From: Salipiger bermudensis
Lineage (GTDB): Bacteria > Pseudomonadota > Alphaproteobacteria > Rhodobacterales > Rhodobacteraceae
Reading direction: 5' to 3'
Length of the DNA: 64,000 nucleotides
Assembly (NCBI RefSeq): GCF_020171625.1
Contig: NZ_JAIUZY010000004.1
Coordinates: forward strand, 310,001-374,000
In this document: piece after piece, positions 12,694-28,010 of the stretch
Layout: each line of letters starts with the position of its first letter
Numbering within the stretch: position 1 is the stretch's first letter
Translations under genes and position numbers: made by a program
Notes under the pieces: generated by a model
Database searches by the model: none
What the model was told of the DNA's origin: nothing
What the model saw: only the letters and a program-made list of their open reading frames with translations

Positions 12694-14004
12694 TCAGAGC
12701 CCCGGCAGCCAGAGCGCCAGCCCGGGGAAGGCCACGAGGATCAGCACCAGAAGCAGCGAGCAGCCGATGAAGGGCAGCGCCGACATGTAGATCTGGTGCA
12801 TCGTGGTGCCCGGAGGCGCCACGCCCTTCATCACGAAGAGCAGCAGACCGAAGGGCGGCGTGGTGAAGCTGATCTCGAGTCCGAGCAGCATGATCAGGCC
12901 GAACCAGATCGGATCGAACCCCATCTGCGCCGCGAGCGGGAAGAAGATCGGCACGGTGAGCAGCATCATCGAGATCTGCTCCATGAACATCCCCAGGATC
13001 AGTAGCACGCCGAACATCACCGCCAGCATCGCAAGCGGCGCCAGCTCGAAGCCGGTGGCCCAGTTGATCAGCCCGCGCGAGCCGCCCGAGAACGCCAGAA
13101 GCTGGCTGAACGTGGCCGAGCCGAAGACGATGAGATAGGCCATCAGCGTCACCCGCAGCGCGCCTTTCACCGACTTGACCATCGCGTCGAAGCTCAGGCA
13201 GCGGAAGATCACCGCAAGGATCAGCACCCCCAGCGCACCGAAGGCGGCGGCCTCGGAGGGGGTGAAGACCCCGGCCACCATGCCCCAGACGGTGAACACC
13301 ATTACCGACATCATCGGCAGGATGTCCTTGGCGATCAGCTTGAGCTTCTCGCGACCCGCGAGCGGCGCGACGTCATAGGCCGGCGCGGCCTCGGGGTCGA
13401 TCCTCGTCTGGGCCCAGATCAGCACGATGTAGAGCCCCGCCAGCAGCACGCCCGGGATCACGCCGGCGAGCAGCAGCTGGCCCACGTCGATCTGCGCCAG
13501 CGTCGCCAGCAGCACCGCCAGTGCCGAGGGCGGGATGATGATCGCCAAGCCGCCGGTGCCGAGGATCGGACCGATGGACATGTGCTTCTTGTAGCCGCGC
13601 TTGCTCATCTCGGGCACCATCAGGCTGCCCAGCAGCGCGGTCGAGCCCATCGACGAGCCCGACAGCGTCGAGAAACCGGTGCCCCCGATCACGGTGACGT
13701 AGGACAGCCGCCCCGGCACCCGGCCGAGCAGGCGGTCGATGGCATTGAACATGCGCTCGCCCAGCCCGGTATAGAAGAAGATCTCGCCCATCAGCAGAAA
13801 CAGCGGGATCGGCACCAGCGAGAACCGCGTCAGCGCGCCGAAGCCGTTGTCGAGCAGCTGGCTGATGCCGTTCATGCCGCCCATGAACACGTAGGCCCCG
13901 ACGATGTTGGAGGCGAGGAACGCCAGCGCCACGGGCATCCCGAGGGCCATGAGACCCATGATCGTGCCCAGCAGAAGGGCCATGGCCCAGTACCATTCCA
14001 TCAT
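12694..14004 (-). CDS. dctM: TRAP transporter large permease DctM
   Basis: 436-aa membrane protein of the DctM/UctM family, the ion-coupled channel subunit of TRAP uptake systems for organic acids. It is hydrophobic throughout, about 12 segments. Family landmarks are visible: GMPVALAFLASNIVGAYVF, a middle SGSSMGSTALLGSLMVPEM, and IIIPPSALAVLLATLAQ. The chosen start MMEWYW overlaps the dctQ stop by 4 bp (ATGA). It is the last gene of the minus-strand arm of the catabolic island. Confidence 0.93.
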   Translation of the reverse strand: MMEWYWAMALLLGTIMGLMALGMPVALAFLASNIVGAYVFMGGMNGISQLLDNGFGALTRFSLVPIPLFLLMGEIFFYTGLGERMFNAIDRLLGRVPGRLSYVTVIGGTGFSTLSGSSMGSTALLGSLMVPEMSKRGYKKHMSIGPILGTGGLAIIIPPSALAVLLATLAQIDVGQLLLAGVIPGVLLAGLYIVLIWAQTRIDPEAAPAYDVAPLAGREKLKLIAKDILPMMSVMVFTVWGMVAGVFTPSEAAAFGALGVLILAVIFRCLSFDAMVKSVKGALRVTLMAYLIVFGSATFSQLLAFSGGSRGLINWATGFELAPLAMLAVMFGVLLILGMFMEQISMMLLTVPIFFPLAAQMGFDPIWFGLIMLLGLEISFTTPPFGLLLFVMKGVAPPGTTMHQIYMSALPFIGCSLLLVLILVAFPGLALWLPGL

Positions 14005-14507
14005 TCGTGGATCCCCGCCTCGCCCGAAAGCAGCATCCGGGGCCCGAAGGTGAACCGGGCAAACTCGATCGCCATGAAGCCGAAGCTGATCGGGAAGGCC
14101 AGCGTCAGGATCCATTTCGGCGTGTAGTAGGCGCGCACGTCGTAATCGTTGCGCGAGAGGTTCTTGGCCACGAGCTCGACGCCCTTCCATGCCAGCACCG
14201 CGCAGACCAGCACGCAGAGCACCGCGACCAGACGGCTCACGAAGCGCTGCCCCGCGGGCGACAGCCCGGCGGTGAAGAGCTCGATATGCACATGGCCCTT
14301 CTCGCGCACCAGCCACGGCGCACCCAGCATGGTCATGTAGAGCAGGCCATATTCAAGCGAGGTGAACAGCCACGCGAAGGGCTGCAGCCCGAGGTTGCGC
14401 ATGGTCACCGAGACGATGATCGAGACCATCATCCAAAGCAGCAGCAGACCGGAGAGGATCGCCATGCCGGTCAGCACGTTGTCATAGGCCCGTGTCAGGG
14501 ACTGCAT
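14001..14507 (-). CDS. dctQ: TRAP transporter small permease DctQ
   Basis: 168-aa inner-membrane protein with four predicted helices and the DctQ signature near FAWLFTSLEYGLLYMTMLGAPWLVREKGHV. It couples the binding protein to DctM. It lies 61 bp after dctP and overlaps dctM, so all three TRAP parts are present in one unit. Confidence 0.9.
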   Translation of the reverse strand: MQSLTRAYDNVLTGMAILSGLLLLWMMVSIIVSVTMRNLGLQPFAWLFTSLEYGLLYMTMLGAPWLVREKGHVHIELFTAGLSPAGQRFVSRLVAVLCVLVCAVLAWKGVELVAKNLSRNDYDVRAYYTPKWILTLAFPISFGFMAIEFARFTFGPRMLLSGEAGIHE

Positions 14508-14568
14508 GAGTCTTGCCTTTCAGGAAAGAAGGCGGCGCGGCCCGCAGCGGGGCCGCACCGGGGAGGCG

Positions 14569-15570
14569 TCACTCGCCGTCGTCGTAGAACAGGTCGACCA
14601 GAGCGTCGTAGTTGCCGGCGCCCGAGGGATGCGCGCTCATCAGCTCCTGCATACGCTCGAGCGTCTCGCCGCGCGCGGCGGCAAGGTAATCCTCGGCCGC
14701 CTTGCCCTCGAGGGTGACGACCTCCATGCCCTGCTCTTCCAGCGCGGCGAAATCCTCGTCGCGCTTTTCGCCCAGGGCTGCGGCAGACTCGGCCTCGTGC
14801 GCGATGGCGACCTCGGTGAGGATCTGGCGCGACTCGTCCGAGAGGCTCTCCCACTTGTCGAGGTTCACGATCACGCCGAGGTCGGTCGAGAAGAAGCACG
14901 GCTCGATGCGGTAGTTGAGGAACTCGTTCCACTTCAGGTCGATGAGGCCGATCTGGGTCCAGCCGGTGGCATCCACCACCCCGCGTTCGAGGCCGGAATA
15001 GACATCGGTGGTCGGCAGGTCGATCACCTGCGCGCCAAGATAGTCGCTGAAAAAGGCGTTGTAGACCGCGTTGCCGCGCAGCTTCAGCCCCGAGACGTCG
15101 AGGTTGCCCTCGGCGTCGAGCTTCGGCTCGTCGCGGGTCCAGAGATTGTAGCACACACCGCTGTCGAACCAGCCGAGGTACTTCACGCCCATCTTCTCCT
15201 GATGGATCTCGTCGATCAGGTCGAGGCCGCCATTCTCGCGCGCCACCGGGGCGGCGATGTTGGCGGTGACCAGCGCGTCCTTCTCGGGCACGGTGCCAGC
15301 GTAGAAAGAACCGGGGGTGTAGACCATGTCGACCACGCCGTTGCGCACCGCGTCGGGCTGCTGGAACATGCCGATGGCCTCGGGGCCGCCGCGCACGTCG
15401 ATCTGCACCACGCCCTCGCCGGCCTCGTTGACCTTGTCGACGAAGCTCAGGAAGCTCTGCGTGTAGATCAGCGTCTCGGGGAAGGCGTGAACGGCGGAAA
15501 GCCGGTCTTCGGCCAGCGCCGTTGTCGCCAGCAGCATCGCGGCTGCACTGGCGAAGAAGGTCGTCTTCAT
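14569..15570 (-). CDS. dctP: TRAP transporter solute-binding protein DctP
   Basis: 333-aa periplasmic binding protein with a Sec signal (MKTTFFASAAAMLLATTALAE). The DctP fold is recognisable by FPETLIYTQSFLSFVDKVNEAGEG, ARGVVDATGWTQIG-like helix 9 sequence (LERGVVDATGWTQIGLID) and LSDESRQILTEVA. The ligand-contact Arg and Asn are not assigned. GGGAGAG is a good ribosome site before ATG 15570. Its place behind leuD suggests the ligand is an organic acid, or amide of one, used by the island's enzymes. Confidence 0.92.
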   Translation of the reverse strand: MKTTFFASAAAMLLATTALAEDRLSAVHAFPETLIYTQSFLSFVDKVNEAGEGVVQIDVRGGPEAIGMFQQPDAVRNGVVDMVYTPGSFYAGTVPEKDALVTANIAAPVARENGGLDLIDEIHQEKMGVKYLGWFDSGVCYNLWTRDEPKLDAEGNLDVSGLKLRGNAVYNAFFSDYLGAQVIDLPTTDVYSGLERGVVDATGWTQIGLIDLKWNEFLNYRIEPCFFSTDLGVIVNLDKWESLSDESRQILTEVAIAHEAESAAALGEKRDEDFAALEEQGMEVVTLEGKAAEDYLAAARGETLERMQELMSAHPSGAGNYDALVDLFYDDGE

Positions 15571-15625
15571 GAGAATCTCTCCCTGTAAGGTGCCGGTCGC
15601 CCGGCATTTGAAAGCGGACCCGGCG

Positions 15626-16210
15626 TCAGGCTGACGGCCAGGCCCAGGCGTGATCGGTCTTCCGTCTGTCGCGGAAGTTCCGGATATCCCCCGCATGGGC
15701 ACGGGTGAGGTCGACGTCGTCCCATCCATTGATCAGCTTGGCCTGCGCCGTCTCGGACAGCGCAAAGCCCAGCTCCTGCCCCGCCACGTTGAGACGGCGG
15801 GTGGCAAGATCGACGCGGGCGGGCGCTGCACCCCGCCCGATGGCCGCGCGCAGCGCCGCCGCCTCGGGTGTGGCGATCGGCAGCAGCCCGTTGTTCACCG
15901 CGTTGCCGGCGAAGATGTCGGCAAAGCTCTCGGCCACGACAACGCGGATGCCGGCATCGACAAGCGCATAGACCGCCGCTTCGCGCGACGAGCCGCAGCC
16001 GAAATTCGGCCCCGCGATCAGCACGCTCGCCCCGGGATGGCGGTCGAGCGGGAAGTCCGCGTCGCCCTCTCGCAGATCGTGCAGCAGGAAACGGCCGTAG
16101 CCCTCGGACCGGCTGGCGGACATGAACCGCGCCGGAATCAGCTGATCGGTGTCGACATCGCGGCGGTCGAGCACCACCGCCTCGCCCTCGTGTGTGGTCC
16201 AGCCAGCCAT
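15626..16210 (-). CDS. leuD: LeuD-type dehydratase small subunit (isopropylmalate isomerase family)
   Basis: 194-aa swivel domain of the aconitase superfamily. The hallmark GPNFGCGSSREAAVYAL is present, as is DRRDVDTDQLIPARF near the N terminus. It starts at ATG 16210, overlapping the leuC stop as TGATG. Its company (GntR, TRAP transporter, hydrolases; no leuB or leuA) suggests catabolic use on another hydroxy-diacid, for example of the dimethylmalate dehydratase type, rather than leucine synthesis. The paralogue question needs the rest of the genome. Confidence 0.88.
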   Translation of the reverse strand: MAGWTTHEGEAVVLDRRDVDTDQLIPARFMSASRSEGYGRFLLHDLREGDADFPLDRHPGASVLIAGPNFGCGSSREAAVYALVDAGIRVVVAESFADIFAGNAVNNGLLPIATPEAAALRAAIGRGAAPARVDLATRRLNVAGQELGFALSETAQAKLINGWDDVDLTRAHAGDIRNFRDRRKTDHAWAWPSA

Positions 16211-17601
16211 CAGCCGCGTCCCTCCAGCAAGGGCCGCACGTCGGTGAGTGTGCCGGTGACGGCGGCAGCCGCGACCATGGCCGGGCTCATCAGGTGGGTG
16301 CGCGCGCCCTTGCCCTGCCGGCCACGGAAGTTGCGGTTGGTCGACGAGGCGCAGCGCTTGCCGGGGGCGACGAGATCGCCGTTCATGCCGACGCACATCG
16401 AGCAGCCGGAGCCGGTCCATTCCAGCCCCGCCTCGATGAAGACCTTGTCGAGCCTCTCCTGTTCGGCCTGCTGCTTGACCAGCATCGAGCCCGGCGAGAC
16501 CAGCCCGGGCACCTTGGCCTTGCGCCCACGCAGCACCGCGGCGGCGGCACGCAGGTCGTCGATGCGGCCGTTGGTGCAGGATCCGAGAAAGACCTGATCC
16601 ACCGGCGTGCCCTCGAGCGGACGGCCCGGCGTCAGCCCCATGTAGTCCATCGCGTCCCGCGCAGCCTCGGCCTGCGTGGCGTCAAGGCGCGCCGGATCGG
16701 GCAGGCTTGCGCCGATGGGCAGGGCCTGATCCGGCGTCGTGCCCCACGTCACCGTCGGGGCGACCTCTGCCATGTCGAAGCTCACGTCGCGATCGAAGCT
16801 GGCATCGGCATCGCTGTGCAGCGTCTGCCAATCGACCTCGGCGGCGTCCCAGTCGGCACCCGAAGGCGCCATCGGGCGGCCTTTCACATAGGCCAGCGTC
16901 ACCGCGTCAGGGGCCACCATACCGAAGCGCGCACCGCCCTCAATCGAGAGGTTGCACAGCGTCATGCGGCCTTCCATCGACAGCGCCCGCACCGCCGACC
17001 CGGCATACTCCACCGCGTGCCCCGCGGCCCCGCCGGTGCCGAGTTGCGAGACCCAGTGCAGCGCCATGTCCTTTGCGGTCACGGCAAGGCCCGCCTCCCC
17101 CTCAAAGCGGATGCGCATGGCGCGGGGCTTGGCCTGCCAGACGGTCTGGGTGGCCAGCACATGTGCCACCTGCGTCGCGCCGATGCCGAATCCCAGCGCG
17201 CCGAAGGCACCATGGGTCGACGTGTGGCTGTCGCCACAATTGATCAGCAGCCCCGGCAGGGTCAGCCCCTGCTCCGGCCCGATGACATGCACGATGCCCT
17301 GCCGCGGATCGCGCAGCCCGAAGAGCCGGATGCCGTGGCGGCTGCAATTGGCCTCGAGCCGCTCAAGCATCACCGCGACCTGCGGGTCCTCGATGCGGTC
17401 GCGGTTGCGCGTCGGCGCGTAGTGATCGGCGACGCCGAAGGTCAGCCCCGGCTCGGACACCTCGAGCCCGCGCTCGGCGAGCTTGGCAAAGGCGTGGTGC
17501 GAGCCCTCGTGAACCAGATGCCGGTCGACCCAGAGCAGCGACTGGCCGTGCTCGGCCTTGATCTCGTGCGCCGACCAGAGCTTGTCGAGAAGCGTCGCCA
17601 T
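16210..17601 (-). CDS. leuC: LeuC-type dehydratase large subunit (isopropylmalate isomerase family)
   Basis: 463-aa [4Fe-4S] hydro-lyase subunit. Motifs: CGDSHTSTHGAFGALGFGIG, cluster ligand Cys in FLGSCTNGRIDD and the pair in GSGCSMCVGMN, and substrate loop near SSTNRNFRGRQG. Length matches bacterial LeuC. It overlaps both neighbours by one base (TGATG). With leuD it forms a complete heterodimer that adds or removes water on a dicarboxylate. The neighbourhood suggests a substrate other than isopropylmalate. Confidence 0.92.
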   Translation of the reverse strand: MATLLDKLWSAHEIKAEHGQSLLWVDRHLVHEGSHHAFAKLAERGLEVSEPGLTFGVADHYAPTRNRDRIEDPQVAVMLERLEANCSRHGIRLFGLRDPRQGIVHVIGPEQGLTLPGLLINCGDSHTSTHGAFGALGFGIGATQVAHVLATQTVWQAKPRAMRIRFEGEAGLAVTAKDMALHWVSQLGTGGAAGHAVEYAGSAVRALSMEGRMTLCNLSIEGGARFGMVAPDAVTLAYVKGRPMAPSGADWDAAEVDWQTLHSDADASFDRDVSFDMAEVAPTVTWGTTPDQALPIGASLPDPARLDATQAEAARDAMDYMGLTPGRPLEGTPVDQVFLGSCTNGRIDDLRAAAAVLRGRKAKVPGLVSPGSMLVKQQAEQERLDKVFIEAGLEWTGSGCSMCVGMNGDLVAPGKRCASSTNRNFRGRQGKGARTHLMSPAMVAAAAVTGTLTDVRPLLEGRG

Positions 17602-18407
17602 CAGGGCTGCCCCTCCGTGTCGCCCGACGGCAGATCGACCACCGGCTCCCAGTGGCGCGTGGCGCTTTCGCCGACCCGCGAGAGCGACATTTCCAGCTCG
17701 AAGCGATCGGGCCGATACAGCGCCGCGAGGTATTCCACCGCGCGGCCTTCGCCATCGCGGACCACCCGGCGCAGCGACAACAGCGCCGCGCCCACCGAGA
17801 CGCCCAGCGCCTCGGCCACGTCCGGCCCGGCCAGCGTCGCCCCGACCCGCTGCGAGGCCGACGACACCCGCACGCCCGAGCGCTCGAGCAGCTGGTAGAG
17901 CGGCACGTTGGCGAGATCGGCTTCGGAGTAGTTCACCGCGATGTCCTCAGGCACGAACGTGGTCAAATGCGAGAACGGCGCCTCGCCTGCCAGTCGCACA
18001 CGCACGGCGCGCTGCACCCGGTGGCCGGCCCCCAGCCCCATCGCCTCGGCCACGTGATCCGGCGCAGCGCCGTAGGAGAACGACAGCAGCCGGGCGCTGT
18101 GCTGGCCCATCTTGACGATCTGCGGGATCAGCGTCGCCATGTCCGCCGACATGGTCTTGGGCTGCACGGCTTCGCGGACCCGCGTGCCGCTGCCGGCGCG
18201 GCGCTCGATCAGGCCGTCCTCGTCGAGTGCGTCGAGCGCCCGTCGAATCGTCACCCGGCTGACCCCGTGCATCTCGGCAAGCTTCTGCTCCCCCGCGAGA
18301 ACCGCGCCTGCGCCATGCACGCCCGAAAGGATATCGTCGCGCAGGAGGAGATAGACCCTGCGGGCCTTGCCCCCTTCCGGCAATGTCTGGCGGTGCTGAT
18401 CAGTCAT
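17601..18407 (-). CDS. GntR/HutC-family transcriptional regulator with UTRA domain
   Basis: 268 aa. An N-terminal winged helix-turn-helix (about 15-85; LAEMHGVSRVTIRRALDALDEDGLIERRAGSGTRV in two overlapping motifs) is followed by a UTRA effector domain (about 100-250). AGGAG precedes the ATG. It is the first gene of the leuC-leuD-dctPQM unit and faces the tautomerase-hyu genes across an AT-rich 117-bp gap. It is therefore the likely local switch for both arms, probably relieved by a pathway metabolite. Confidence 0.9.
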   Translation of the reverse strand: MTDQHRQTLPEGGKARRVYLLLRDDILSGVHGAGAVLAGEQKLAEMHGVSRVTIRRALDALDEDGLIERRAGSGTRVREAVQPKTMSADMATLIPQIVKMGQHSARLLSFSYGAAPDHVAEAMGLGAGHRVQRAVRVRLAGEAPFSHLTTFVPEDIAVNYSEADLANVPLYQLLERSGVRVSSASQRVGATLAGPDVAEALGVSVGAALLSLRRVVRDGEGRAVEYLAALYRPDRFELEMSLSRVGESATRHWEPVVDLPSGDTEGQP

Positions 18408-18524
18408 TTTCTACTCCTGAAGGCCCGAGCCTACGCAATGATTTTACAAAATCAATAAATTTGTCTTTTCTGATCGTCAAAATCTGTCTTATAAAAAATA
18501 CAGGTCAAACAGGAGGCACTTCTT
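18408..18524. promoter_or_regulatory. Divergent promoter region of the catabolic island
   Basis: 117-bp AT-rich gap between divergent gntR and the tautomerase gene. It holds an inverted repeat GATTTT-AC-AAAATC at 18440-18453, a plausible GntR operator, and TATAAAAAAT at about 18490-18499, which could serve as part of a plus-strand -10 element. AGGAGG lies 8 bases before the plus-strand ATG. Confidence 0.5.
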
Positions 18525-19082
18525 ATGCCGATCGTGCAGATGCATCTCATCGAAGGCTATGACGGTGACACCAAGCGCCGTCTTGGCGAAGCCGTCACCG
18601 ACGCGATCAGCTCGGTGATCGCCGCACCAGCCGACGCGGTCACGGTGATGATCTCGGAGCATTCGGGCGAGGATTACATGCGCGGACGGGTCCGCCGCAG
18701 CCCGGCCCCCGCCCTGCCCGATCCCTGCGCCATCGTGCGCGGCTACCTTGCCGAGATGGAAGACGGCGCGCTCGACGCCGCGCGCGCCCGGCTTGGCGAG
18801 GGCTTCACCATGCGCTTCCCAAGTGCCGCCCCGATGACCACGCTGGATGCGCTGATCGACTGGTCGCGCCCGCGCTACCGCTTCGTCAGGAAGACCATCG
18901 AAAGCGTCGAGCTCGCCGCCGCGTCCGGACGCTCGGCCGTTTACGTCGCAGGCACGCTCCAAGGCGAATGGCCCGACGGTACGCCGTTCGAGGGCATCCG
19001 GTTCATCGACCGCTTCGAGCTGACCGACGGCCTCATCACCAGACAGGACGTCTGGAACGACATCGCAGAGGAGCGCCCCTGA
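18525..19082 (+). CDS. Tautomerase / NTF2-like (SnoaL) fusion protein
   Basis: 185 aa with two parts. Residues 1-62 align without gaps to 4-oxalocrotonate tautomerase: after Met removal Pro1 is the catalytic base (MPIVQMHLIEG). The two substrate arginines of the classic enzyme are changed, Arg11 to Tyr and Arg39 to Thr, so a different substrate is expected. Residues ~68-180 look like an NTF2/SnoaL cone (AIVRGYLAEMEDGALDAA, FEGIRFIDRFEL, ITRQDVW). Strong AGGAGG site. Overlaps hyuB as TGATG. Confidence 0.7.
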   Translation: MPIVQMHLIEGYDGDTKRRLGEAVTDAISSVIAAPADAVTVMISEHSGEDYMRGRVRRSPAPALPDPCAIVRGYLAEMEDGALDAARARLGEGFTMRFPSAAPMTTLDALIDWSRPRYRFVRKTIESVELAAASGRSAVYVAGTLQGEWPDGTPFEGIRFIDRFELTDGLITRQDVWNDIAEERP

Positions 19083-20776
19083 TGCCCGGCCCCGAAATCG
19101 ACCCGATCACGCTGGCGGTTCTCTCCGGCCGCATGGAGCAGATCGCCGACGAGATGGACGCGACGCTGTTCCGCTCGGCTTTCAACCCGATCATCGCCGA
19201 GGCCCATGACGCCAGCCACGGCATCTACCACGCCACCACCGGCGACACGCTGGTGCAGGGCAAGTCGGGCCTGCCCATCTTTGTCGGCGTGATGTCCTTC
19301 GCGGTGAAGGCGGTGATCGACAAGTTCGGCGACAGCGCCGAGGACGGCGACATCTTCATCTTCAACGACGCCCATCTCGGTGGCACCCATCTCAATGACA
19401 TGCGGGTGATCCGGCCCTATTACCACGACGGCAAGCTGTTCTGCTGGCTGGCGTCGGTCGGGCACTGGCACGACCTCGGCGGCGGCGCACCGGGCAACTA
19501 CAACCCCGCTGCCAAGGATGCCTTTCAGGAGGCCTTCGTGCTGCCCCCCGTGCGGCTGGCCCGCAAGGGTGAGATCAATCAGGACGTCATCGACATCCTG
19601 ATGCGCAACACCCGCCTGCCGCAATCCGCCGAGGGCGATCTCAACGGCCAGCTCGGCGCGCTGGACCTTGGCGTCAGGCGCATGGGCGAGCTGCTGGGCG
19701 AGTATGGCGGCGGCACCGTCGCGGCGGCGCTCACGGCGCTGTCGGACCGGGCCGAGACCCTGATGCGGGCCGAGCTCGCCACCCTGCCCGACGGGCGCTG
19801 GGAAGCCGAGGATTTCCTCGACAACGACGGCATCACCGACGAAGCGCTGCCGATCAGGGTGGCGCTGGAGATCAAGGGCGAACAAATGGTGCTCGATTTC
19901 ACCGGCACCGCCCCGCGCTGTCAGGGCCCGGTCAACATCGCCCTGCCCACAGCCGTGGCGACCGCCTATGTGGCGATCAAGCACATCTTCCCGGACGTGC
20001 CCGCCAATGCCGGCGTCATGCGCCCGATCGACGTGCGCATTCCCGAGGGCTCGCTGCTGGCGGCCGAATTTCCCGCGCCCGTGGGTGGCTACACCGAGAC
20101 CATCATGCGGATGATCGACGTGATCTTCTCTGCCGCCGCGCAGGCCGCGCCCGAGCGGGTGGTCGCCAATGCCTACGGCACGATCAACGCGCTCGCCATC
20201 GCCGGGCGGCGCTCGAACGGCAGCCCGTGGGTGATGTTCTCGTTCTATGGCGGCGGCCATGGCGGCTCGCCCGAGTCGGACGGGCTGAACCACGGCAACG
20301 CGCCGATCTCGACCGCGACGATCCCGCCGATGGAAATCCTCGAGGCCGCCTATCCGGTGATGTTCCGGCAATGGGCGCTGCGCCCCGACAGCGCCGGCCC
20401 AGGCCAGCATCGCGGCGGGCTCGGCGCTGTCTACGAGATCGAGGTGCTGGAAGAGAACGGCGCCGAGGTGTTCCTCTTCGGCGAACGCGGCCGCTTCGCG
20501 CCCAAGGGCGTCTCGGGCGGCGGAGAGGCGGCGTTGAACCATTTCGAGTACCAGACCGACGCGGGCTGGGACAGCCCGCCGCTGGCCTCCAAGATGCGCG
20601 GCATCCAGCTGACGCAGGGCCAGTCCGTACGGCTCGAGACGCCGGGCGGCGGCGGCTACGGCGCCCCCGAAGACCGCGCCCCCGAGAAGGTGGCAGGCGA
20701 CGTGGCCAAGGGCTTCCTCAGCGCGGCCGAGGCGGACAGGATTTACGGACCCAAGTGGAAGGAGGTGCGGGCATGA
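19082..20776 (+). CDS. hyuB: Hydantoinase B / oxoprolinase family protein (HyuB)
   Basis: 564-aa beta subunit of ATP-dependent cyclic amide hydrolases (N-methylhydantoinase, 5-oxoprolinase, caprolactamase) and acetone carboxylase relatives. N-terminal pattern: DPITLAVLSGRMEQIADEMDATLFRSAFNPIIAEAHDASHGIY. HDLGGGAPGN and a C-terminal GGGGYGAPEDR are also typical. Start 19082 fits a TGATG overlap with the tautomerase gene. It works with HyuA, whose ATG overlaps the hyuB stop. Confidence 0.9.
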   Translation: MPGPEIDPITLAVLSGRMEQIADEMDATLFRSAFNPIIAEAHDASHGIYHATTGDTLVQGKSGLPIFVGVMSFAVKAVIDKFGDSAEDGDIFIFNDAHLGGTHLNDMRVIRPYYHDGKLFCWLASVGHWHDLGGGAPGNYNPAAKDAFQEAFVLPPVRLARKGEINQDVIDILMRNTRLPQSAEGDLNGQLGALDLGVRRMGELLGEYGGGTVAAALTALSDRAETLMRAELATLPDGRWEAEDFLDNDGITDEALPIRVALEIKGEQMVLDFTGTAPRCQGPVNIALPTAVATAYVAIKHIFPDVPANAGVMRPIDVRIPEGSLLAAEFPAPVGGYTETIMRMIDVIFSAAAQAAPERVVANAYGTINALAIAGRRSNGSPWVMFSFYGGGHGGSPESDGLNHGNAPISTATIPPMEILEAAYPVMFRQWALRPDSAGPGQHRGGLGAVYEIEVLEENGAEVFLFGERGRFAPKGVSGGGEAALNHFEYQTDAGWDSPPLASKMRGIQLTQGQSVRLETPGGGGYGAPEDRAPEKVAGDVAKGFLSAAEADRIYGPKWKEVRA

Positions 20777-22833
20777 CGGACCGGTCTCAGGTCATCGGCG
20801 TCGACGTGGGCGGCACCTTCACGGATGTCTTCGTGGTCGATGAGGCGGCGGGCACCGCCCGCGTCGCCAAGGTGCCGACCACGCGACCCGATCAGTCGGG
20901 CGGCTTTCTCGACGGCATTGGCCGGCAGGTCGCCGACCTCTCGACCGTGCAGGCGGTGATCCACGGCACCACCGCCGGCACCAACGCCCTGCTCGAGCGC
21001 AAGGGCGCGCGCATCGGCGTCATCACCACCGAGGGCCTGCGCGACGTGCTCGAGATGCGCCGCCGCGACCGGCCCCGCACCTGGGGCCTGCGCGGCGAGT
21101 TCGAGCCCGTGGTGCCGCGCGAGCTGCGCCTCGAGGTGCCCGAGCGCACGCTGGCCGACGGCAGCATCCGCACCGAGGTCGATCTCGACGCGGTGCGCGC
21201 GGCGGGACGGCAGCTCATCGAGGCCGGCGCGCAGGCGGTGGCGGTGCTGTTTGCCAACAGCTACGCCAACCCCGGCAACGAGGCCAAGGCGGTCGCCGCG
21301 CTGCGCGAGATCTGGCCCAACGCGCATGTCTCGGCCTCGTCCGAGATCCTGCCCGAGATCCGCGAATACGAGCGTTTCTCGACCACAGCGCTCAACGCCT
21401 ACCTCCAGCCCGAGGTGTCGGGCTATCTCGATCGGCTCGACACTGCCCTTCGCAACGGCGGCTTCGGCTCCGAGTTCCTCATCGTGCAGTCGAACGGCGG
21501 CGTGATGGATGTCGACACCGCCTGTCGCCTGCCGGTGCGCACCGCGCTGTCGGGTCCGGCGGCGGGGGTGATCGCGGCGGCCCATATCGCTACCGAAGCC
21601 GGCTTTCCCGACATCATCACCGGCGACATGGGCGGCACCTCCTTCGACGTGTCACTGATCGCCGGCGGCCAGTCGATGCTGGCGCCCGAGACCTCCGTCG
21701 ATTTCGGCATGACGGTGCGCGCCCCGATGATCGAGATCACCACCATCGGCGCCGGCGGCGGCTCGATTGCCTGGGTCGACAAGGGCGGGCTGCTCAACAT
21801 CGGGCCGGAAAGCGCCGGCTCCACCCCCGGCCCGGTGGCGTATGGGCAGGGCAACACCCGCCCCACGGTGACCGACGCCAACGTGGTGCTGGGCCGCATC
21901 GATCCCGAAAATCCGATCGGCGGCAAGCTCGAGCGGCTCGATGTGGAGGCCGCCGCCCGCGCCATCGACGCGCATGTGGGCACACCGCTCGGCCTGTCAA
22001 GCACCGAGGCCGCCGAGGCGATCCTGACGGTCGCCAACTCGCGCATGGCCGGTGCGATCCGCCTCGTCTCCATCGAGCGTGGCTTCGACCCGAAGCGCTT
22101 TGCCTTCATGCCCTTCGGCGGCGGCGGCGCGCTCCACACCGGCGCGATGCTCGCCGATGTCGGGCTCGGCAGTGCCATCGTGCCGCGCTACCCGGGCGTG
22201 ACCTCGGCCATGGGCTGCGTCATCGCCGACATGCGCCACGATTTCGTGCAGACCATCAACGCCACCGTCTCGACCCTCGACCGCGAGGCGCTCGGGCACT
22301 TCATGCAGGACCACGCCGACAAGGGCAGCGCCATGCTCGACGCCGCCGCCACCCGCTTCGAGGCCCGCGAGCTGCGCTTCGAGCTCGACATGGCCTATCT
22401 CGGGCAGACGCACACCGTGCCGGTGGCGCTTGATGTGCGTGTCGAGGATGGCGCCGTCACCCCGCCCACCGCCGCGCAGGTCGCCGAGGCCTTCGAGGCG
22501 GCGTATCGTTCCGCCTATGGCCGCACGCTGCCCGGTGGCGTGCAGCGGGTGATCAACCTGCGCAGTGCGGTGATCGGCAAGCGACCGAAATTCGACCTCG
22601 CCACGCTGGCGCCGCAGGGCGGCAGCACCGAGGCGGCGCGCAAGGGCACGCGGCAGGTGCATTTCGGCACCGCCTGGCACGAGACCACGATCTACGACCG
22701 GCTCGCACTGCCGGTCGGCGCCGTGATCGAGGGCCCGGCGATCCTCGAGCAGGCCGACACCACCGTGCTGCTCGATCCGGGCCTGACGGGCCGGGTCGAC
22801 GCCTATGGCAACACCATCATCACGAGGACCTGA
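20773..22833 (+). CDS. hyuA: Hydantoinase A / oxoprolinase family protein (HyuA)
   Basis: 686-aa ATP-binding alpha subunit. The N-terminal VIGVDVGGTFTDVFVVD is the ASKHA phosphate-binding motif of HyuA. Further family marks: HGTTAGTNALLERKGARIG, SGPAAGVIAA, TGDMGGTSFDVSLI and FGGGGALHTGAML. It phosphorylates a cyclic amide/imide carbonyl to drive ring opening, or in acetone carboxylase relatives activates a ketone. Overlap with hyuB is ATGA. The position favours a ring- or amide-opening step in the island's pathway. Confidence 0.92.
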   Translation: MTDRSQVIGVDVGGTFTDVFVVDEAAGTARVAKVPTTRPDQSGGFLDGIGRQVADLSTVQAVIHGTTAGTNALLERKGARIGVITTEGLRDVLEMRRRDRPRTWGLRGEFEPVVPRELRLEVPERTLADGSIRTEVDLDAVRAAGRQLIEAGAQAVAVLFANSYANPGNEAKAVAALREIWPNAHVSASSEILPEIREYERFSTTALNAYLQPEVSGYLDRLDTALRNGGFGSEFLIVQSNGGVMDVDTACRLPVRTALSGPAAGVIAAAHIATEAGFPDIITGDMGGTSFDVSLIAGGQSMLAPETSVDFGMTVRAPMIEITTIGAGGGSIAWVDKGGLLNIGPESAGSTPGPVAYGQGNTRPTVTDANVVLGRIDPENPIGGKLERLDVEAAARAIDAHVGTPLGLSSTEAAEAILTVANSRMAGAIRLVSIERGFDPKRFAFMPFGGGGALHTGAMLADVGLGSAIVPRYPGVTSAMGCVIADMRHDFVQTINATVSTLDREALGHFMQDHADKGSAMLDAAATRFEARELRFELDMAYLGQTHTVPVALDVRVEDGAVTPPTAAQVAEAFEAAYRSAYGRTLPGGVQRVINLRSAVIGKRPKFDLATLAPQGGSTEAARKGTRQVHFGTAWHETTIYDRLALPVGAVIEGPAILEQADTTVLLDPGLTGRVDAYGNTIITRT

Positions 22834-22836
22834 CCC

Positions 22837-23454
22837 ATGGCTCACGGACCGATCGACCCGACACGCACCGCTCTGCTGACCATCGACCTGCAGAACGACT
22901 TCCTCCACCCCGAGGGCGCCTATGGCCGCGCTGGCCAGTCCGCAAAGCCCATCGCCGCCCTGCCCGAGCGCATCGCGCCGCTGCGCGACGCGCTTCGCGC
23001 AAGGGGCGGCACCTATATCAGCGCCCAGTTCACGCTGGTCCCTGGCCCCGGGGACGAGCCGCTGATCGCGCCGCATCTCAAGGAACTGCGCCCGTTCCTC
23101 GGCAAGGGCGATTTCGCGCCCGGCAAGTTCGGTCACCAGCTGGTCGAGACGCTGGCCCCCGCCGACTACACCGTCGAAAAGGTGGCCTATTCCGCCTTCT
23201 ACCAGAGCCGGCTGGAATACATCCTGCGGGCACTGGGGATCGATACGCTGATCATCGGCGGGATCGTCACCAATGGCGGCGTCGCCTCGACGTTGCGCGA
23301 CGCGCATCTGCGCAATGTCGACACGATCCTGCTGACCGATGGCTGTGCCGCGTTCCGCTCCGAGGTGCATGACGCCACTCTGGTCTCGCTTGGCTCGCTC
23401 GGCACCCAGAAGAGCTGCGCCGAGGTCATCGCCGAGCTGGAGGCGCTGTCATGA
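22837..23454 (+). CDS. Isochorismatase-fold hydrolase lacking the catalytic Cys
   Basis: 205-aa protein of the isochorismatase/cysteine-hydrolase superfamily. Asp17 (LTIDLQNDF) and Lys115 (VEKVAYSAF) of the triad are present. The nucleophile position is Gly148 (GIVTNGGVAST where amidases have TNVCV). Gly at this site is the state seen in true isochorismatases such as PhzD and EntB, so it may split an ether/enol bond or act without a thioester rather than as an ordinary amidase. It is 3 bp after hyuA and overlaps the lyase gene by 4 bp. Confidence 0.82.
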   Translation: MAHGPIDPTRTALLTIDLQNDFLHPEGAYGRAGQSAKPIAALPERIAPLRDALRARGGTYISAQFTLVPGPGDEPLIAPHLKELRPFLGKGDFAPGKFGHQLVETLAPADYTVEKVAYSAFYQSRLEYILRALGIDTLIIGGIVTNGGVASTLRDAHLRNVDTILLTDGCAAFRSEVHDATLVSLGSLGTQKSCAEVIAELEALS

Positions 23455-24317
23455 GCCTGCGCGCGCGGCTCAACGCCCCCGAGATCCTCGTCGCCCCCGG
23501 CGTCTATGACGGGCTCACCGCCGCGCTGGCGCAGCAGGCCGGGTTCGAGGCGGTCTACCTCTCCGGCGCCGCGGTCGCCTATACCCGGCTCGGCAGGCCC
23601 GATATCGGGCTGACCACCGCCAGCGAGATGGCCGACACGATGGCTCTGATCGCCGACCGCATCGATGTGCCGGTAATCATCGACGCCGACACCGGATTCG
23701 GGAACGCGCTCAACGCCCAGCGTACCCTACGCGCCTATGAGCGCGCCGGCGCCGCCGCGCTGCAGGTCGAGGACCAGACCTATCCCAAGCGCTGCGGCCA
23801 CCTGAAGGACAAGTCGCTGATCCCCTCGGCCGAGATGGCCGGAAAGATCGCCGCCATGGCCGATGCCCGCGCCAGCGACGAGACGCTGATCATCGCCCGC
23901 ACCGACGCCATCGCGGTGGAGGGCATCGACGCCGCCATGGCCCGGGCCGAGGCCTATATCGAGGCCGGCGCCGACGCGCTCTTCATCGAGGCACCGCGCT
24001 CGGGCGAGGAGCTGAAGCTGGTCGGCGAGACCTTCGGCAAGCGCATTCCGCTGCTCGCCAACATGGTCGAGGGAGGCTTCACGCCGATCTCGAACGCCCG
24101 CGATCTCGAGGCGATGGGCTTTTCCATCGTGATCTTTCCCGGCGGCATCGTGCGGGCGCTGGCGCGCACCGCGCAGGACTACTACGCCAGCCTGCACGCC
24201 AACGGCTCGAACCGGCCTTTCGGCGCGCGGATGTTTGATTTCGACGGGCTGAACGAGGTCATCGGCACGCCCGAGATGCTGGCCTCGGGACAGAAGTGGG
24301 AACCCCGCGATGGCTGA
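23451..24317 (+). CDS. Isocitrate lyase / PEP mutase family C-C lyase
   Basis: 288-aa TIM-barrel protein of the family with 2-methylisocitrate lyase, oxaloacetate hydrolase and 2,3-dimethylmalate lyase. Metal ligands appear in IIDADTGFGN (Asp78, Asp80) and Glu107 (LQVEDQ). The flexible catalytic loop KRCGH is at 113-117 with Cys115, as in lyases and unlike PEP mutase. The likely reaction is cleavage of a 2-hydroxy/2-methyl dicarboxylate into pyruvate plus a short acid. Pairing with a LeuCD-type dehydratase recalls dimethylmalate catabolism. It overlaps both neighbours. Confidence 0.87.
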   Translation: MSLRARLNAPEILVAPGVYDGLTAALAQQAGFEAVYLSGAAVAYTRLGRPDIGLTTASEMADTMALIADRIDVPVIIDADTGFGNALNAQRTLRAYERAGAAALQVEDQTYPKRCGHLKDKSLIPSAEMAGKIAAMADARASDETLIIARTDAIAVEGIDAAMARAEAYIEAGADALFIEAPRSGEELKLVGETFGKRIPLLANMVEGGFTPISNARDLEAMGFSIVIFPGGIVRALARTAQDYYASLHANGSNRPFGARMFDFDGLNEVIGTPEMLASGQKWEPRDG

Positions 24318-25680
24318 GGTCGCCCCCACTCCCGATGCCTTCGACATCGAGGTCGAAACACTGATCGTCGGCGCCGGGGCCTGCGGCCTGATCGCGGCGC
24401 TGGCGGCCCACGAAGCCGGGCAGGAGGTGCTCGTGATCGAGGCCGACCCGGTGCCGAAGGGCTCAACGGCGCTTTCGGCCGGGCTGATCCCTGCGGCCGG
24501 CACCGCGCTGCAGGCCGAGGCCGGGATCGCCGATGACGCGGCGCGCTTCGCCGCCGACATCCAGGCCAAGGCCAAGGCCAAGGGCGAGAACGATCCCGCG
24601 CTGGTCGCGGCGCTGGCGGAGGGCTCAGCGGGGGTGATCGACTGGCTGGCACAGCGCTACGGCCTGCCCTTTTCGGTGGTGAGCGATTTCGACTATCCCG
24701 GCCATTCACGGCGACGGATGCACGGCCTGCCGAGCCGCTCGGGCGCCGAACTGGTCGACCGGCTGTGCGCCACCGTCGAGGCGCAGGGCATCGACCTGCT
24801 CTGCGGACGCCGGGCCGAGATTCTCTATCATGAGGGCCACACCGTCACCGGCGCCGGGCTGCGGGCGCCGGACGGCACGCTCGAGACCGTAGGCTGCACC
24901 AAGCTGGTGCTGGCCTGCAACGGCTTCGGCGGGAGCCGCGACAAGGTCGCCGCCCACATGCCCGCGATTTCGGACGCGCTGTGGTTCGGCCACGAGGGCA
25001 ACCGCGGCGAGGCTCTCGACTGGGGCGCGACACTCGGAGCCGGTACGCGGCATCTTGGCGCCTATCAAGGCCACGGCAACGTGGCGCATCCGCATGGTAT
25101 CCTGATCACATGGGCCACCATCACCGAGGGCGGCATTCAGGTGAATCGCAACGGAAAGCGCTTCTGGAACGAGGCACAGGGTTACTCCGAGGCGGCGCGC
25201 GTGGTGCTGGCCCAGCCCGGTCGCGAGGCGGTGACGATCTTCGACGCCCGCATCGCCGGCATCGCGCGCCAATTCGAGGATTTCCGCAATGCCGAGGCGC
25301 AGGGCGCGGTGCGCAGTGCCGATACGCTCGAAGACCTAGCAGCACAGCTCGATCTGCCCCCCGACGCCTTGCACGCAGAGATGAGCGCGATCACGCCCGG
25401 CGGAACCGACCGCTTCGGCCGGCTCTGGGGCGAAACCCGGCTGACGCCGCCCTATTGCGCGGTCCGCGTCACCGGGGCGCTGTTTCACACCCAGGGCGGG
25501 CTCGTGACCGATGGCAGCGGACGGGTCATGGCGACAGATGGCGCCCCCTTCCCCAACCTCTTCGCCGCCGGCGGCGCTGCCTGCGGCGTCTCGGGCGCAG
25601 GGGACAGCGGCTACCTTTCCGGCAACGGATTGCTCGCAGCGGCGGTGCTGGGCCGCGCGGCGGGGGCGGCTGCGCTCTGA
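24310..25680 (+). CDS. FAD-dependent oxidoreductase, fumarate reductase/ketosteroid dehydrogenase family
   Basis: 456-aa flavoprotein of the FAD-binding-2 family. Rossmann motif VGAGACGLIAALAA near the N terminus; C-terminal FAD contact LFAAGGAACGVSGAGDSGYLS. GALFHTQGGL and DRFGRLWGE offer the His and Arg expected in the reductase/dehydrogenase active site. It would interconvert a C-C single and double bond alpha-beta to a carbonyl. Its start overlaps the lyase by 8 bp. A 92-bp gap then precedes the LysR gene. Confidence 0.86.
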   Translation: MAEVAPTPDAFDIEVETLIVGAGACGLIAALAAHEAGQEVLVIEADPVPKGSTALSAGLIPAAGTALQAEAGIADDAARFAADIQAKAKAKGENDPALVAALAEGSAGVIDWLAQRYGLPFSVVSDFDYPGHSRRRMHGLPSRSGAELVDRLCATVEAQGIDLLCGRRAEILYHEGHTVTGAGLRAPDGTLETVGCTKLVLACNGFGGSRDKVAAHMPAISDALWFGHEGNRGEALDWGATLGAGTRHLGAYQGHGNVAHPHGILITWATITEGGIQVNRNGKRFWNEAQGYSEAARVVLAQPGREAVTIFDARIAGIARQFEDFRNAEAQGAVRSADTLEDLAAQLDLPPDALHAEMSAITPGGTDRFGRLWGETRLTPPYCAVRVTGALFHTQGGLVTDGSGRVMATDGAPFPNLFAAGGAACGVSGAGDSGYLSGNGLLAAAVLGRAAGAAAL

Positions 25681-25772
25681 GCCCCGACATCAGGCAGGCG
25701 TCCGACGAGGCCGGCCCCCAGCGCCGCGCTTTCGGCTTGCCCTGCCCCGGCGTCCGGGAAAGACTCGCTGGC

Positions 25773-26717
25773 ATGAGATACACGCTGCGCCAGATCGAAT
25801 ATTTCGTCGCCACCGCCGAAGCCGGGTCGATCACGCTTGCGGCGGAGCGCATCCATGTCTCGCCGCCCTCGATCTCCGCGGCGATCTCGCAGCTCGAGGC
25901 CGAGCTTGGCGCGCAGCTTTTCCTGCGCCGGCACGCGCAGGGGCTGTCGCTGACCCGCGTGGGGCGCGCGCTGCTGGTCGATGCCAAGCAGCTGCTCGAT
26001 CAGGCGCAGAAGCTCTACCAGACCGCCTCCGAAGCATCCGAGACGGTGGCCGGGACGCTGTCGCTCGGCTGCCTGCTGACCTTCGCGCCAATGGTGCTTC
26101 CGGCCATCGCGCATAGCTTCAGCACCGCCTTTCCCGGCGCGCAGGTGCTGCCCGATGTCGCCGATCACGAACGCCTGCTGCACCGGCTGGAGCGCGCCGA
26201 GCTCGACCTCGCGCTGAGCTATGACCTGCACCTGCCCGACGGCTTCAGCTTCACGCCGCTGGCCCGGCTGGCGCCGTTTGCCATGCTGGCCGAGACCGAT
26301 CCTCTGGCACAGGCGCCCGAGGTGACGCTGGACGAGCTGGCCGCACGCGACCTGATCCTGCTCGACCTGCCGCTCTCGCGCGACTATTTCCTCTCGCTCT
26401 TCGCGCGGGCGGGGCTGACGCCACGGGTTTCGGCGCGGCTGCAGCAGATGGATGTGATCCGCACCATGGTCGCGAACGGCTTCGGCTACACCATCGCGAA
26501 TATCCGTCCGAAATCTCGCCACGCGCTTGACGGGCGGGCGGTGGTGCGGGTGCCCATCGCCGGCGACCAGCAGCCGCTGCGGCTGGGTCTCGTCCACGTC
26601 GCCCGACAGGAGCCGACCCGGCTTTTGCGCAGTTTCATGGAACATTGCGCGCGGGAGATCTCGGACAGCCGCATCCCGGGCATGGACGCGCCGCCCGCCG
26701 GGACCGACCCGAGCTGA
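25773..26717 (+). CDS. LysR-family transcriptional regulator
   Basis: 314 aa. The N-terminal helix-turn-helix starts MRYTLRQIEYFVATAEAGSI and includes SPPSISAAISQLEAELG; the substrate-binding domain spans about 90-300 (LSLGCLLTFAPMVLPAI onward). Start ATG 25773. It reads in the same direction as the hyu arm, so it may be its last gene and a second regulator, though a separate promoter in the 92-bp gap is possible. Confidence 0.9.
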   Translation: MRYTLRQIEYFVATAEAGSITLAAERIHVSPPSISAAISQLEAELGAQLFLRRHAQGLSLTRVGRALLVDAKQLLDQAQKLYQTASEASETVAGTLSLGCLLTFAPMVLPAIAHSFSTAFPGAQVLPDVADHERLLHRLERAELDLALSYDLHLPDGFSFTPLARLAPFAMLAETDPLAQAPEVTLDELAARDLILLDLPLSRDYFLSLFARAGLTPRVSARLQQMDVIRTMVANGFGYTIANIRPKSRHALDGRAVVRVPIAGDQQPLRLGLVHVARQEPTRLLRSFMEHCAREISDSRIPGMDAPPAGTDPS

Positions 26718-26723
26718 GCGCCC

Positions 26724-28010
26724 TCAGCCCGCCTTCGCGACCGGACGCGCGCCGTCGCGTGCGGCCTCGTCATAGACGGTGTAGCTCGCCTGTATCGCGA
26801 TCTGATCGGCGACGTGGCGGGCGTCGTGCCAGACGCCCCAGATAAAGCTCGATCCCCGGCGCGACTGCCACGGCAACCCGAGGAAGTAGATCCCCGGCTC
26901 CTCCGAGACCCCGCGCTGATGCCGCGGCACGCCCCGTTCGTCGAACGTGTCGACCTCGAGCCAGCCGTAATCCACGGCATAGCCGGTGGCCCAGATCACC
27001 GAGGTGATGCCAGCCTCGTCCAGATCCAGCGCGGTGACCGGGTTGGTCAGGCAGTCGGGCTCGGGTCCGAAGTCCCGCGCCTCCGGCTCCTCCGGCAGGT
27101 CAAGCCCGTTGCGCGCGACATAGGCATCGGCCTCGTCGAGCAGGGAGAGGTAATTCTCGTCACCGCGCTGCACCTGCAGCGCCACGTCGTCGGCAAAGCG
27201 CAGCGTGCCGCCCTCCTCAGACAAGGTGCGACCGAGCAGCGTGATGCCCTGCGCCGCGAGCCTGCGGAAATCCACCGTCTCGCCCCCGCGCGCACCGCTC
27301 ACCGCGATGGTGACATGCTCGCGGCCCGGCTCTTGCGCGGCGAGGTCCCATTTGCCGAGCACTCCCAGCCACCAGACGAAGTCGCGTCCGCGGTAGCGGC
27401 GCGGCGGGCGGTCGTGCGGCCCGACCGAGAGGAAGACCTTGCGGCCCGCACGCGACAGCTCGTCGGCGATCTGGACGCCGGACGAGCCCGCCCCCACCAC
27501 CAGAACCGCGCCGTCGGGCAACTGCGCGGGATTGCGGTAGCTGTTGGAATGGATCTGCAGCAGGCCGTCGCGCGGGGCGATCACCTCCGGCATCACCGGG
27601 CGCTGGAACGGCCCGGTCGCGGCGACCACGTTTCGCGCCTCGATCGGCCCCTCGGAGGTCTCGACCCGGAAGCCCCGCTGGCCCTCGAGACGCCGCACCG
27701 ACGTAACCTCGACCCCGCAGCGCAGCGGGGCGCCGATCTGCTCGGCATATTGCACGAAGTAGTCGGCGACCTGCTCCTTCGCGACAAAGGCCTCGCCATC
27801 GCCACCGGGGAAATCGAGGCCGGGAAAGCGGTCATGCCATGCCGGACCGTTGGCGACGAGGCTGTCCCAGCGCTCCGAGCGCCAGCGCTCGGCGATGCGG
27901 GCGCGCTCGAGCACCAGATGCGGGATGCCGGCGCGGCCCAGATGCTCGCTCATTGCGATCCCGGCCTGCCCGCCCCCGACCACAAGGGTGTCGATCGTCT
28001 CGAGTGTCAT
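26724..28010 (-). CDS. Flavin-containing monooxygenase-like NAD(P)/FAD oxidoreductase
   Basis: 428-aa protein with two dinucleotide folds: FAD motif VGGGQAGIAMSEHL near residue 11 and NADPH motif VVGAGSSGVQIADEL near 170. A Baeyer-Villiger/FMO-like FATGY-type segment is present as VIWATGYAVDYGW. Substrate unknown; similar proteins oxidise amines, ketones or sulfides. It converges with the LysR gene with only 6 bp between the stops. Confidence 0.85.
   Translation of the reverse strand: MTLETIDTLVVGGGQAGIAMSEHLGRAGIPHLVLERARIAERWRSERWDSLVANGPAWHDRFPGLDFPGGDGEAFVAKEQVADYFVQYAEQIGAPLRCGVEVTSVRRLEGQRGFRVETSEGPIEARNVVAATGPFQRPVMPEVIAPRDGLLQIHSNSYRNPAQLPDGAVLVVGAGSSGVQIADELSRAGRKVFLSVGPHDRPPRRYRGRDFVWWLGVLGKWDLAAQEPGREHVTIAVSGARGGETVDFRRLAAQGITLLGRTLSEEGGTLRFADDVALQVQRGDENYLSLLDEADAYVARNGLDLPEEPEARDFGPEPDCLTNPVTALDLDEAGITSVIWATGYAVDYGWLEVDTFDERGVPRHQRGVSEEPGIYFLGLPWQSRRGSSFIWGVWHDARHVADQIAIQASYTVYDEAARDGARPVAKAG

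Follow-up and report, generated by a model that had tools for sequence, protein, structure and literature searches.

The 64,000-nucleotide stretch of Salipiger bermudensis DNA analysed here (the window; contig NZ_JAIUZY010000004.1, positions 310,001 to 374,000 of the forward strand) carries at 12694-26717 an island of two divergent arms, whose genes were identified by profile searches of the window open reading frames (ORFs). The minus arm encodes a GntR/UTRA regulator, LeuC, LeuD and the DctP, DctQ and DctM components of a tripartite ATP-independent periplasmic (TRAP) transporter; the plus arm encodes a Tautomerase/SnoaL_2 fusion protein, HyuB, HyuA, a protein of the isochorismatase fold, a KRCGH lyase of the isocitrate lyase (ICL) family and a FAD_binding_2 flavoprotein, and is followed by a LysR gene. 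We propose, with a probability of about 0.4, that these genes form a catabolic operon whose substrate is a substituted cyclic imide with a five-membered ring, hematinic acid or its dihydro form being the most likely one. Hematinic acid, 3-methyl-4-(2-carboxyethyl)maleimide, is left at the end of the oxidative breakdown of chlorophyll, heme and bilins. From the gene set, its conservation, the exchange of enzymes between loci and the linkage to genes for glutaryl-coenzyme A (CoA) dehydrogenase, all of which are observed directly, we infer the reactions and the substrate.

Conservation, enzyme exchange and the glutarate linkage

Related loci were taken as the best 80 of at least 563 matches to a flavoprotein profile, and co-occurrence was counted among the 61 that are 15 kb or longer. 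HyuA, HyuB, the isochorismatase-fold protein, the lyase, LeuC and LeuD are all present in 53 of these 61; the remaining eight miss parts, and two of them (L097 and L102) are without all six. This co-occurrence, which the original prediction (made from the window sequence by a model) had proposed to look for across genomes, is far above chance. The layout is identical on the Sulfitobacter pontiacus plasmid pDSM110277_b, and a GntR match above 60 bits was found in 52 of the 80 loci. Counting the window's own genome, 45 of 295 genomes in the family (E ≤1e-100) and 13 of 398 in the phylum (1e-70) encode the flavoprotein; the nearest relative of the window's copy in the tree is that of Roseivivax marinus (77%), which suggests a host from the Roseobacter group. 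Within the class, 21 of 240 genomes gave a match to the fusion protein, and several of these matches span one of the two domains only.

Exchange of enzyme modules was surveyed in 121 loci (the 80 from the flavoprotein profile, 11 on plasmids and 30 further ones) at thresholds of 90 bits and 40% identity, the amidohydrolase being called by bits alone. The ring opener is HyuAB in 94 loci, a pair of PuuE-like deacetylases in 10 and a D-hydantoinase-like amidohydrolase in two; none is in view in the other 15, several of which are truncated at a contig or fetch boundary; some were retrieved through the fusion protein only and could lie outside the system. At these thresholds no locus has both HyuAB and the PuuE-like pair; L027 shows just the first PuuE-like protein before the stretch ends. 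By Pfam the three openers belong to unrelated families, each of which includes openers of hydantoin, allantoin or imide rings: HyuA and HyuB carry Hydantoinase_A and Hydantoinase_B domains (PF05378, PF01968, PF02538), and the PuuE-like proteins, with 142 and 128 bits against the PuuE allantoinase model TIGR03212 (cut-off 424.6), are members of that superfamily and not PuuE itself. A relationship of the fungal imidase HxnM to the PuuE group is described in the part of PMC9304392 consulted. In two loci, L177 and L178, the TRAP system (64-73%), GntR, LeuCD of bacterial type, lyase and flavoprotein are like those of the window, but the PuuE-like pair, accompanied by an isochorismatase-fold protein of its own, takes the place of HyuAB; of the two, L178 alone shows the fusion protein.

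Other positions are exchanged as well. Archaeal-type LeuCD stands in for bacterial LeuCD in several loci that retain the other parts, and genes for a CoA-transferase and a protein like 3-hydroxy-3-methylglutaryl (HMG)-CoA lyase are found at the lyase's place in four loci: Acidiphilium L040, Haloferax L042, Sphingobium L201 (which, like L200, stands outside the 121-locus census) and L185/L198. In the last of these the two genes are about 20 kb apart with a weak ICL-family match (37%) nearby, and the region upstream of L185 (L197) gave no match to any query protein. Since non-homologous enzymes repeatedly fill one seat, that seat is probably a reaction step, and from the proteins found there the exchanged steps are probably ring opening, hydration and carbon-carbon cleavage. 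The earlier proposal of an enzyme that opens a cyclic imide or amide gains weight from two unrelated openers that substitute for HyuAB, an exchange that is new here. The haloarchaeal plasmid locus L042 (5893-15275) combines the D-hydantoinase-like opener, LeuCD, the HMG-CoA-lyase-like protein, the CoA-transferase and a SnoaL protein; the presence there of this relative of the system suggests transfer between domains.

The clue to the acid product came from the genes downstream. On a Burkholderia plantarii plasmid (L041) the operon is followed by genes for a porin, two electron transfer flavoprotein subunits, a predicted glutaryl-CoA dehydrogenase (735 bits to PDB 3gnc and 574 to 1sir, both glutaryl-CoA dehydrogenases) and a CoA-transferase whose best model is the succinate-glutarate CoA-transferase NF052585 (542 bits, below the cut-off of 750; next best 318). 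Among the 73 loci in which 1.3 kb or more follows the flavoprotein gene (seven of the 80 being left out), a glutaryl-CoA dehydrogenase gene (>400 bits) lies directly 3' of it in eight, on the same strand and with a gap of 50-113 bp, and in six of these eight a glutarate CoA-transferase-like gene comes next. This linkage is new here; on the flavoprotein tree it requires at least five state changes, gains or losses. In 22 loci the gene after the flavoprotein lies no more than 150 bp away in the same orientation, and the only families seen there more than twice are glutaryl-CoA dehydrogenase (6) and leuC (6), a count that drops 12 of the 80 loci in which no ORF was called in the flavoprotein cluster, among them L083 and L091, which have the dehydrogenase. 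The window's genome has a glutaryl-CoA dehydrogenase homologue (69%) elsewhere, as well as CoA-transferase candidates at 55% and 52%, the latter with an internal stop.

If the lyase releases glutarate, the compound cleaved would be a malate with a 2-carboxyethyl side chain and its precursor a maleate with the same chain; if the other maleate carbon bears a methyl group, that precursor equals hematinic acid with its ring opened, and pyruvate would be released alongside glutarate. The dehydrogenase linkage therefore points to hematinic acid, the carboxyethyl-methyl maleimide, rather than to maleimides bearing methyl or ethyl groups only. The maleimides of tetrapyrrole breakdown, put forward in the original prediction, are thus kept as candidates, and its methyl- or ethyl-only examples lose ground. 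Pyruvate plus propionate, which it had named as the end of nicotinate fermentation, were set aside as end products of the island on account of the linkage, and the propionate end of that analogy found no support.

Genes and proteins of the island

The genes of the island are as follows (start and end in the window, strand, product, supporting match).

12694-14004, minus: DctM, TRAP large permease (PF06808, 1.4e-75; TIGR00786 above cut-off)
14001-14507, minus: DctQ, TRAP small permease (PF04290, 3.3e-23)
14569-15570, minus: DctP, TRAP solute-binding protein (PF03480; best PDB sequence 4mnc/4mni, 2e-48)
15626-16210, minus: LeuD-type small dehydratase subunit, probable catabolic paralogue (PRK01641, 183.8 bits, cut-off 167)
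16210-17601, minus: LeuC-type large subunit, probable catabolic paralogue (PRK12466, 706.7 bits, cut-off 531)
17601-18407, minus: GntR/UTRA regulator (PF07702, PF00392)
18525-19082, plus: 4-oxalocrotonate tautomerase/SnoaL fusion (PF01361 and PF12680; PDB 9mua/9mup, 2.1e-59)
19082-20776, plus: HyuB, predicted subunit of an ATP-dependent cyclic amide/imide hydrolase (PF02538, 2e-170)
20773-22833, plus: HyuA, partner subunit of the HyuB enzyme (PF05378, PF01968, PF19278)
22837-23454, plus: isochorismatase-fold hydrolase with Gly148 at the catalytic Cys position (PF00857; TNGGVAST motif)
23451-24317, plus: ICL/PEP-mutase family lyase, KRCGH, predicted alkylmalate lyase (PF13714; alignments)
24310-25680, plus: FAD_binding_2 flavoprotein in the fumarate/urocanate reductase superfamily, predicted to act in C=C redox chemistry (PF00890; flavocytochrome c fumarate reductase profile match)
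25773-26717, plus: LysR regulator at the island edge, doubtful member (PF00126, PF03466)

With the starts chosen here, seven of the ten same-strand junctions overlap by 1-8 bases. Profile searches found every family that had been read from the sequence at the position given for it, so that the earlier gene list stands, except that the LysR ORF reaching 26717 had gone unnamed. Matches to this LysR protein are weak (three of the 80 loci, 27-35% identity, none adjoining the flavoprotein gene).

The original prediction of a catabolic role for LeuCD had turned on whether the genome holds another leuCD, and one was found. There are four Aconitase-family places in the genome: the window LeuC, one other LeuC and two of aconitase type. 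The other LeuC, on contig C15, is 52.6% identical to the island LeuC and is adjoined by a LeuD (34% to the island LeuD) and a LeuB (473 bits). The models PRK12466, TIGR00170, PRK01641 and TIGR00171 are all over cut-off for the island LeuCD, and it is by context only that these proteins would be placed outside leucine synthesis. Because a separate leuC-leuD-leuB exists, the island LeuCD is a divergent paralogue; a part in leucine synthesis was rejected on the second leuCDB and the catabolic surroundings, which favour a catabolic island as first proposed.

The lyase (PF13714, 147.9 bits) carries KRCGH, as do 67 of 72 lyase sequences, the other five having KKCGH. In alignments 70 of the 72 have NMVEGG, a near match to NMIEGG of petal death protein, an alkylmalate lyase, and distinct from NITEFG of PrpB. 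Tyr-Thr-Arg (44-46) precedes the conserved Pro-Asp in 67 of the 72 and is absent from all four solved lyases compared; that Arg46 might hold a third carboxylate is a guess. With VEGG in place of TEFG, and with 288.9 bits against the PrpB equivalog TIGR02317 (cut-off 354.4), a role in the 2-methylcitrate cycle was rejected. A search of the window's genome with the lyase gave no second match. The sequence agrees with action on a substituted malate, and so favours the earlier suggestion that a hydratase and an ICL-family lyase act in turn on a substituted diacid. The HMG-CoA-lyase-like substitutes would fit the same step by analogy with citramalyl-CoA lyases, which cleave CoA esters by comparable chemistry: were that malate first turned into its CoA ester, cleavage would yield pyruvate and glutaryl-CoA.

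Four genes beyond the island were recorded. A glutathione S-transferase family gene (11962-12573) lies immediately beyond one end, and a Pyr_redox_3 flavin monooxygenase-like protein is encoded next to the other (26724-28010, minus strand). A 421-amino-acid ORF at 10265-11527 has a Walker-like GPPGNGKSS motif and no Pfam match at E 0.001, and is probably an uncurated ATPase. At 28640-30718 a bifunctional ATP-sulfurylase/APS kinase bears an extra N-terminal winged-helix match (HTH_24/MarR_2), an odd fusion.

Proposed pathway and its alternatives

In the proposed pathway the TRAP system would import the imide by way of its carboxylate, and the tautomerase/SnoaL fusion and the flavoprotein would bring double-bond isomers and saturated or unsaturated forms to a single species. 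HyuAB would then open the ring with ATP to a half-amide, from which the isochorismatase-fold protein would release ammonia to leave 2-methyl-3-(2-carboxyethyl)maleate. LeuCD would hydrate this maleate to a malate derivative, the KRCGH lyase would cleave that derivative to pyruvate and glutarate, and glutarate would enter central metabolism through glutaryl-CoA. Hematinic acid has been found in leaves and lake sediments and, with small maleimides, is counted among the end products in the available part of PMC7318184. A fuller version of the proposal, in which bacteria widely possess a dedicated route to mineralise hematinic acid, the imide is opened with ATP, the half-amide is deamidated on a Cys-less isochorismatase-fold protein by the dialkylmaleamate's own carboxylate, and LeuCD and the lyase lead to pyruvate and glutarate, is somewhat more tentative than the operon as outlined above.

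Several observations weigh against hematinic acid or against particular steps. The dehydrogenase linkage is confined to eight of 73 loci and is not beside the window's island, and the parsimony count is of state changes, not of proven independent gains. L040 holds a second, more distant HyuAB (below the thresholds) about 10 kb from its PuuE-like pair. The island HyuAB reaches neither the caprolactamase nor the acetophenone carboxylase equivalog cut-offs and corresponds to no characterised subtype, and hydantoins would be opened by the same three opener families. Hematinic acid itself requires no desaturation, and the flavoprotein, in which the profile alignment shows the His and the acid-Arg positions known from fumarate reductase to be conserved, is without the second carboxylate-binding Arg and has Trp for the substrate-side Glu (the roles of these positions being assumed from fumarate reductase); it may act on the ring rather than on a diacid, given these changes. 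The protein of the closest PDB structure to DctP (4mnc/4mni) is, we presume, a benzoylformate binder, and no firm role can be assigned to the PrpD and Asp/Glu racemase family genes that other clusters contain.

The half-amide step presents a difficulty of mechanism. In 91 of 92 isochorismatase-fold sequences of the window's type, the window's own included, Gly148 (TNGGVAST) takes the place of the catalytic Cys, a position marked by the solved entries titled C162S and C169S; the sole exception is L078, a locus with the PuuE-like pair. Asp17 and Lys115 are kept in all 92, so that the Asp-Lys-Cys triad of the NicF, RutB and BiuH type is incomplete. The half-amide step is consequently left without the textbook mechanism, and a textbook half-amidase role was dropped. 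Fold neighbours of a structure model of middling confidence (pLDDT 79, used for this purpose only) are hydrolases of triuret, biuret and ureidoacrylate, maleamate amidases ranking lower. Maleamic acids hydrolyse through attack by their own carboxylate in the portion of PMC3913492 available, and a dialkylmaleamate may by analogy need no enzyme nucleophile, which is speculation. The other type of isochorismatase-fold protein, in loci with the deacetylase pair, has the Cys in eight of eight, so that L177/L178 and the window show two imide-opening modules that differ in the isochorismatase-fold protein too: the catalytic Cys is present in the former and absent from the latter. Old-yellow-enzyme family proteins, which suit the reduction of maleimides, are encoded in two clusters tested, Tistrella and Neorhizobium; two proteins annotated as tRNA-dihydrouridine synthase and nitronate monooxygenase (L038 12745-13722 and L039 14766-15737) have Oxidored_FMN, the old yellow enzyme family, as best Pfam match.

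The same chemistry could serve another imide, through a differently branched maleate (citraconate, dimethylmaleate or methyl-ethylmaleate) that would yield pyruvate or glyoxylate together with acetate, propionate or butyrate, the glutaryl-CoA dehydrogenase being of use to some strains only. The lyase motif near that of petal death protein and the 65 of 73 loci in which the dehydrogenase is not the next gene speak for such a substrate, which we nevertheless consider unlikely, as the dehydrogenase is the only recurrent non-core enzyme downstream, and TRAP substrates usually carry a carboxylate, which alkyl-only imides do not have. Less probable again is a hydantoin or ureide pathway, with HyuAB opening a hydantoin, the isochorismatase-fold protein removing the carbamoyl group, and LeuCD and the lyase acting later on the carbon skeleton. 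Hydantoin or allantoin hydrolases do occur in all three opener families, and the carbamoyl hydrolases named above are the fold neighbours; but those enzymes rely on the Cys that is absent here, and the product would be an amino acid, for which the island has no aminotransferase or ammonia-lyase and none recurs in the eight annotated relatives.

Glutarate would also be accounted for by a seven-carbon route, in which the imide of butane-1,2,4-tricarboxylate is opened, the flavoprotein forms cis-homoaconitate in the manner of tricarballylate dehydrogenase (143.5 bits to the TcuA model, below the cut-off of 369), LeuCD forms homoisocitrate and the lyase releases glyoxylate and glutarate. We consider this improbable: the imide is not known to have a common natural source, and the CoA-transferase and HMG-CoA-lyase-like substitutes are better suited to a tertiary alcohol that yields pyruvate. 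Least probable is the use of a lactam of the 2-piperidone or caprolactam type, whereby HyuAB would lead to 5-aminovalerate and glutarate and LeuCD with the lyase would belong to a separate neighbouring pathway. Glutarate is among its products, and HyuA and HyuB reach 521 and 313 bits against caprolactamase models (cut-offs 1000), yet LeuCD and the lyase remain with the ring opener through the replacement of each part, and the eight annotated relatives show no recurrent aminotransferase or semialdehyde dehydrogenase. Hematinic acid or its dihydro form remains the substrate that we favour.

Significance and relation to known systems

Synthesis and breakdown of chlorophyll and heme are global in extent. 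If the proposal is right, one operon of marine and soil bacteria recycles tetrapyrrole nitrogen and closes the carbon and nitrogen loop of tetrapyrroles; LeuCD and ICL-family lyases acquire a new substrate, the gene set becomes a marker of tetrapyrrole turnover, and the Cys-less isochorismatase-fold enzyme would be mechanistically unusual. Among the papers listed by literature searches, which mostly do not cover subscription papers, we found no bacterial pathway for the use of maleimides and nothing that links hematinic acid with glutarate. Publications on the gene combinations of the island were not found either, though the authors of PDB 9mua/9mup may discuss the neighbourhood. Listed papers on maleimides concern, by title, bioconjugation, materials or drug delivery, and those with hematinic acid deal mostly with pigments of heme, leaves or fossils. 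A study of bacterial transformation of shale porphyrins (PMC8669743) gives, in the part available, no enzymes for maleimide use, and cites, by its title, work on release of hematinic acid from heme by a bacterial protein.

The nicotinate fermentation of Eubacterium barkeri ends with the DmdAB dehydratase and 2,3-dimethylmalate lyase, and the island resembles it in that a LeuCD-type hydro-lyase would pass a substituted malate to an ICL-family lyase, with pyruvate and an acid as products. It differs in its front end, the predicted ATP-dependent opening of an imported ring, and in the predicted acid, glutarate instead of propionate. The feature tables of the eight annotated relatives list no B12-dependent mutase or methylitaconate isomerase, no genome-wide search having been made. 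The 2-methylcitrate cycle, which ends with PrpD, AcnD/AcnB and PrpB, likewise pairs an aconitase-superfamily hydratase with a KRCGH lyase, and several relatives of the island have a PrpD-family gene; the island, however, has LeuCD and not aconitase, the lyase motif differs as described above, and there are the imide-opening module and, in some relatives, the glutarate-handling genes. The fusion protein shares its two-domain architecture and 52-53% identity with 4OT-SnoaL of P. atlanticus (PDB 9mua, 9mup), which is known from structure entries. Closest in the early steps are HxnM and HxnN of Aspergillus nidulans, which, in the part of PMC9304392 consulted, take a cyclic imide to a half-amide and then by deamination to a diacid; the variant loci resemble this system further in using the PuuE/imidase superfamily, whereas the window has HyuAB and the Cys-less isochorismatase-fold protein, and its diacid would continue through LeuCD and the lyase. 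The enzyme families are all known; their assembly is new, and the substrate is probably new.

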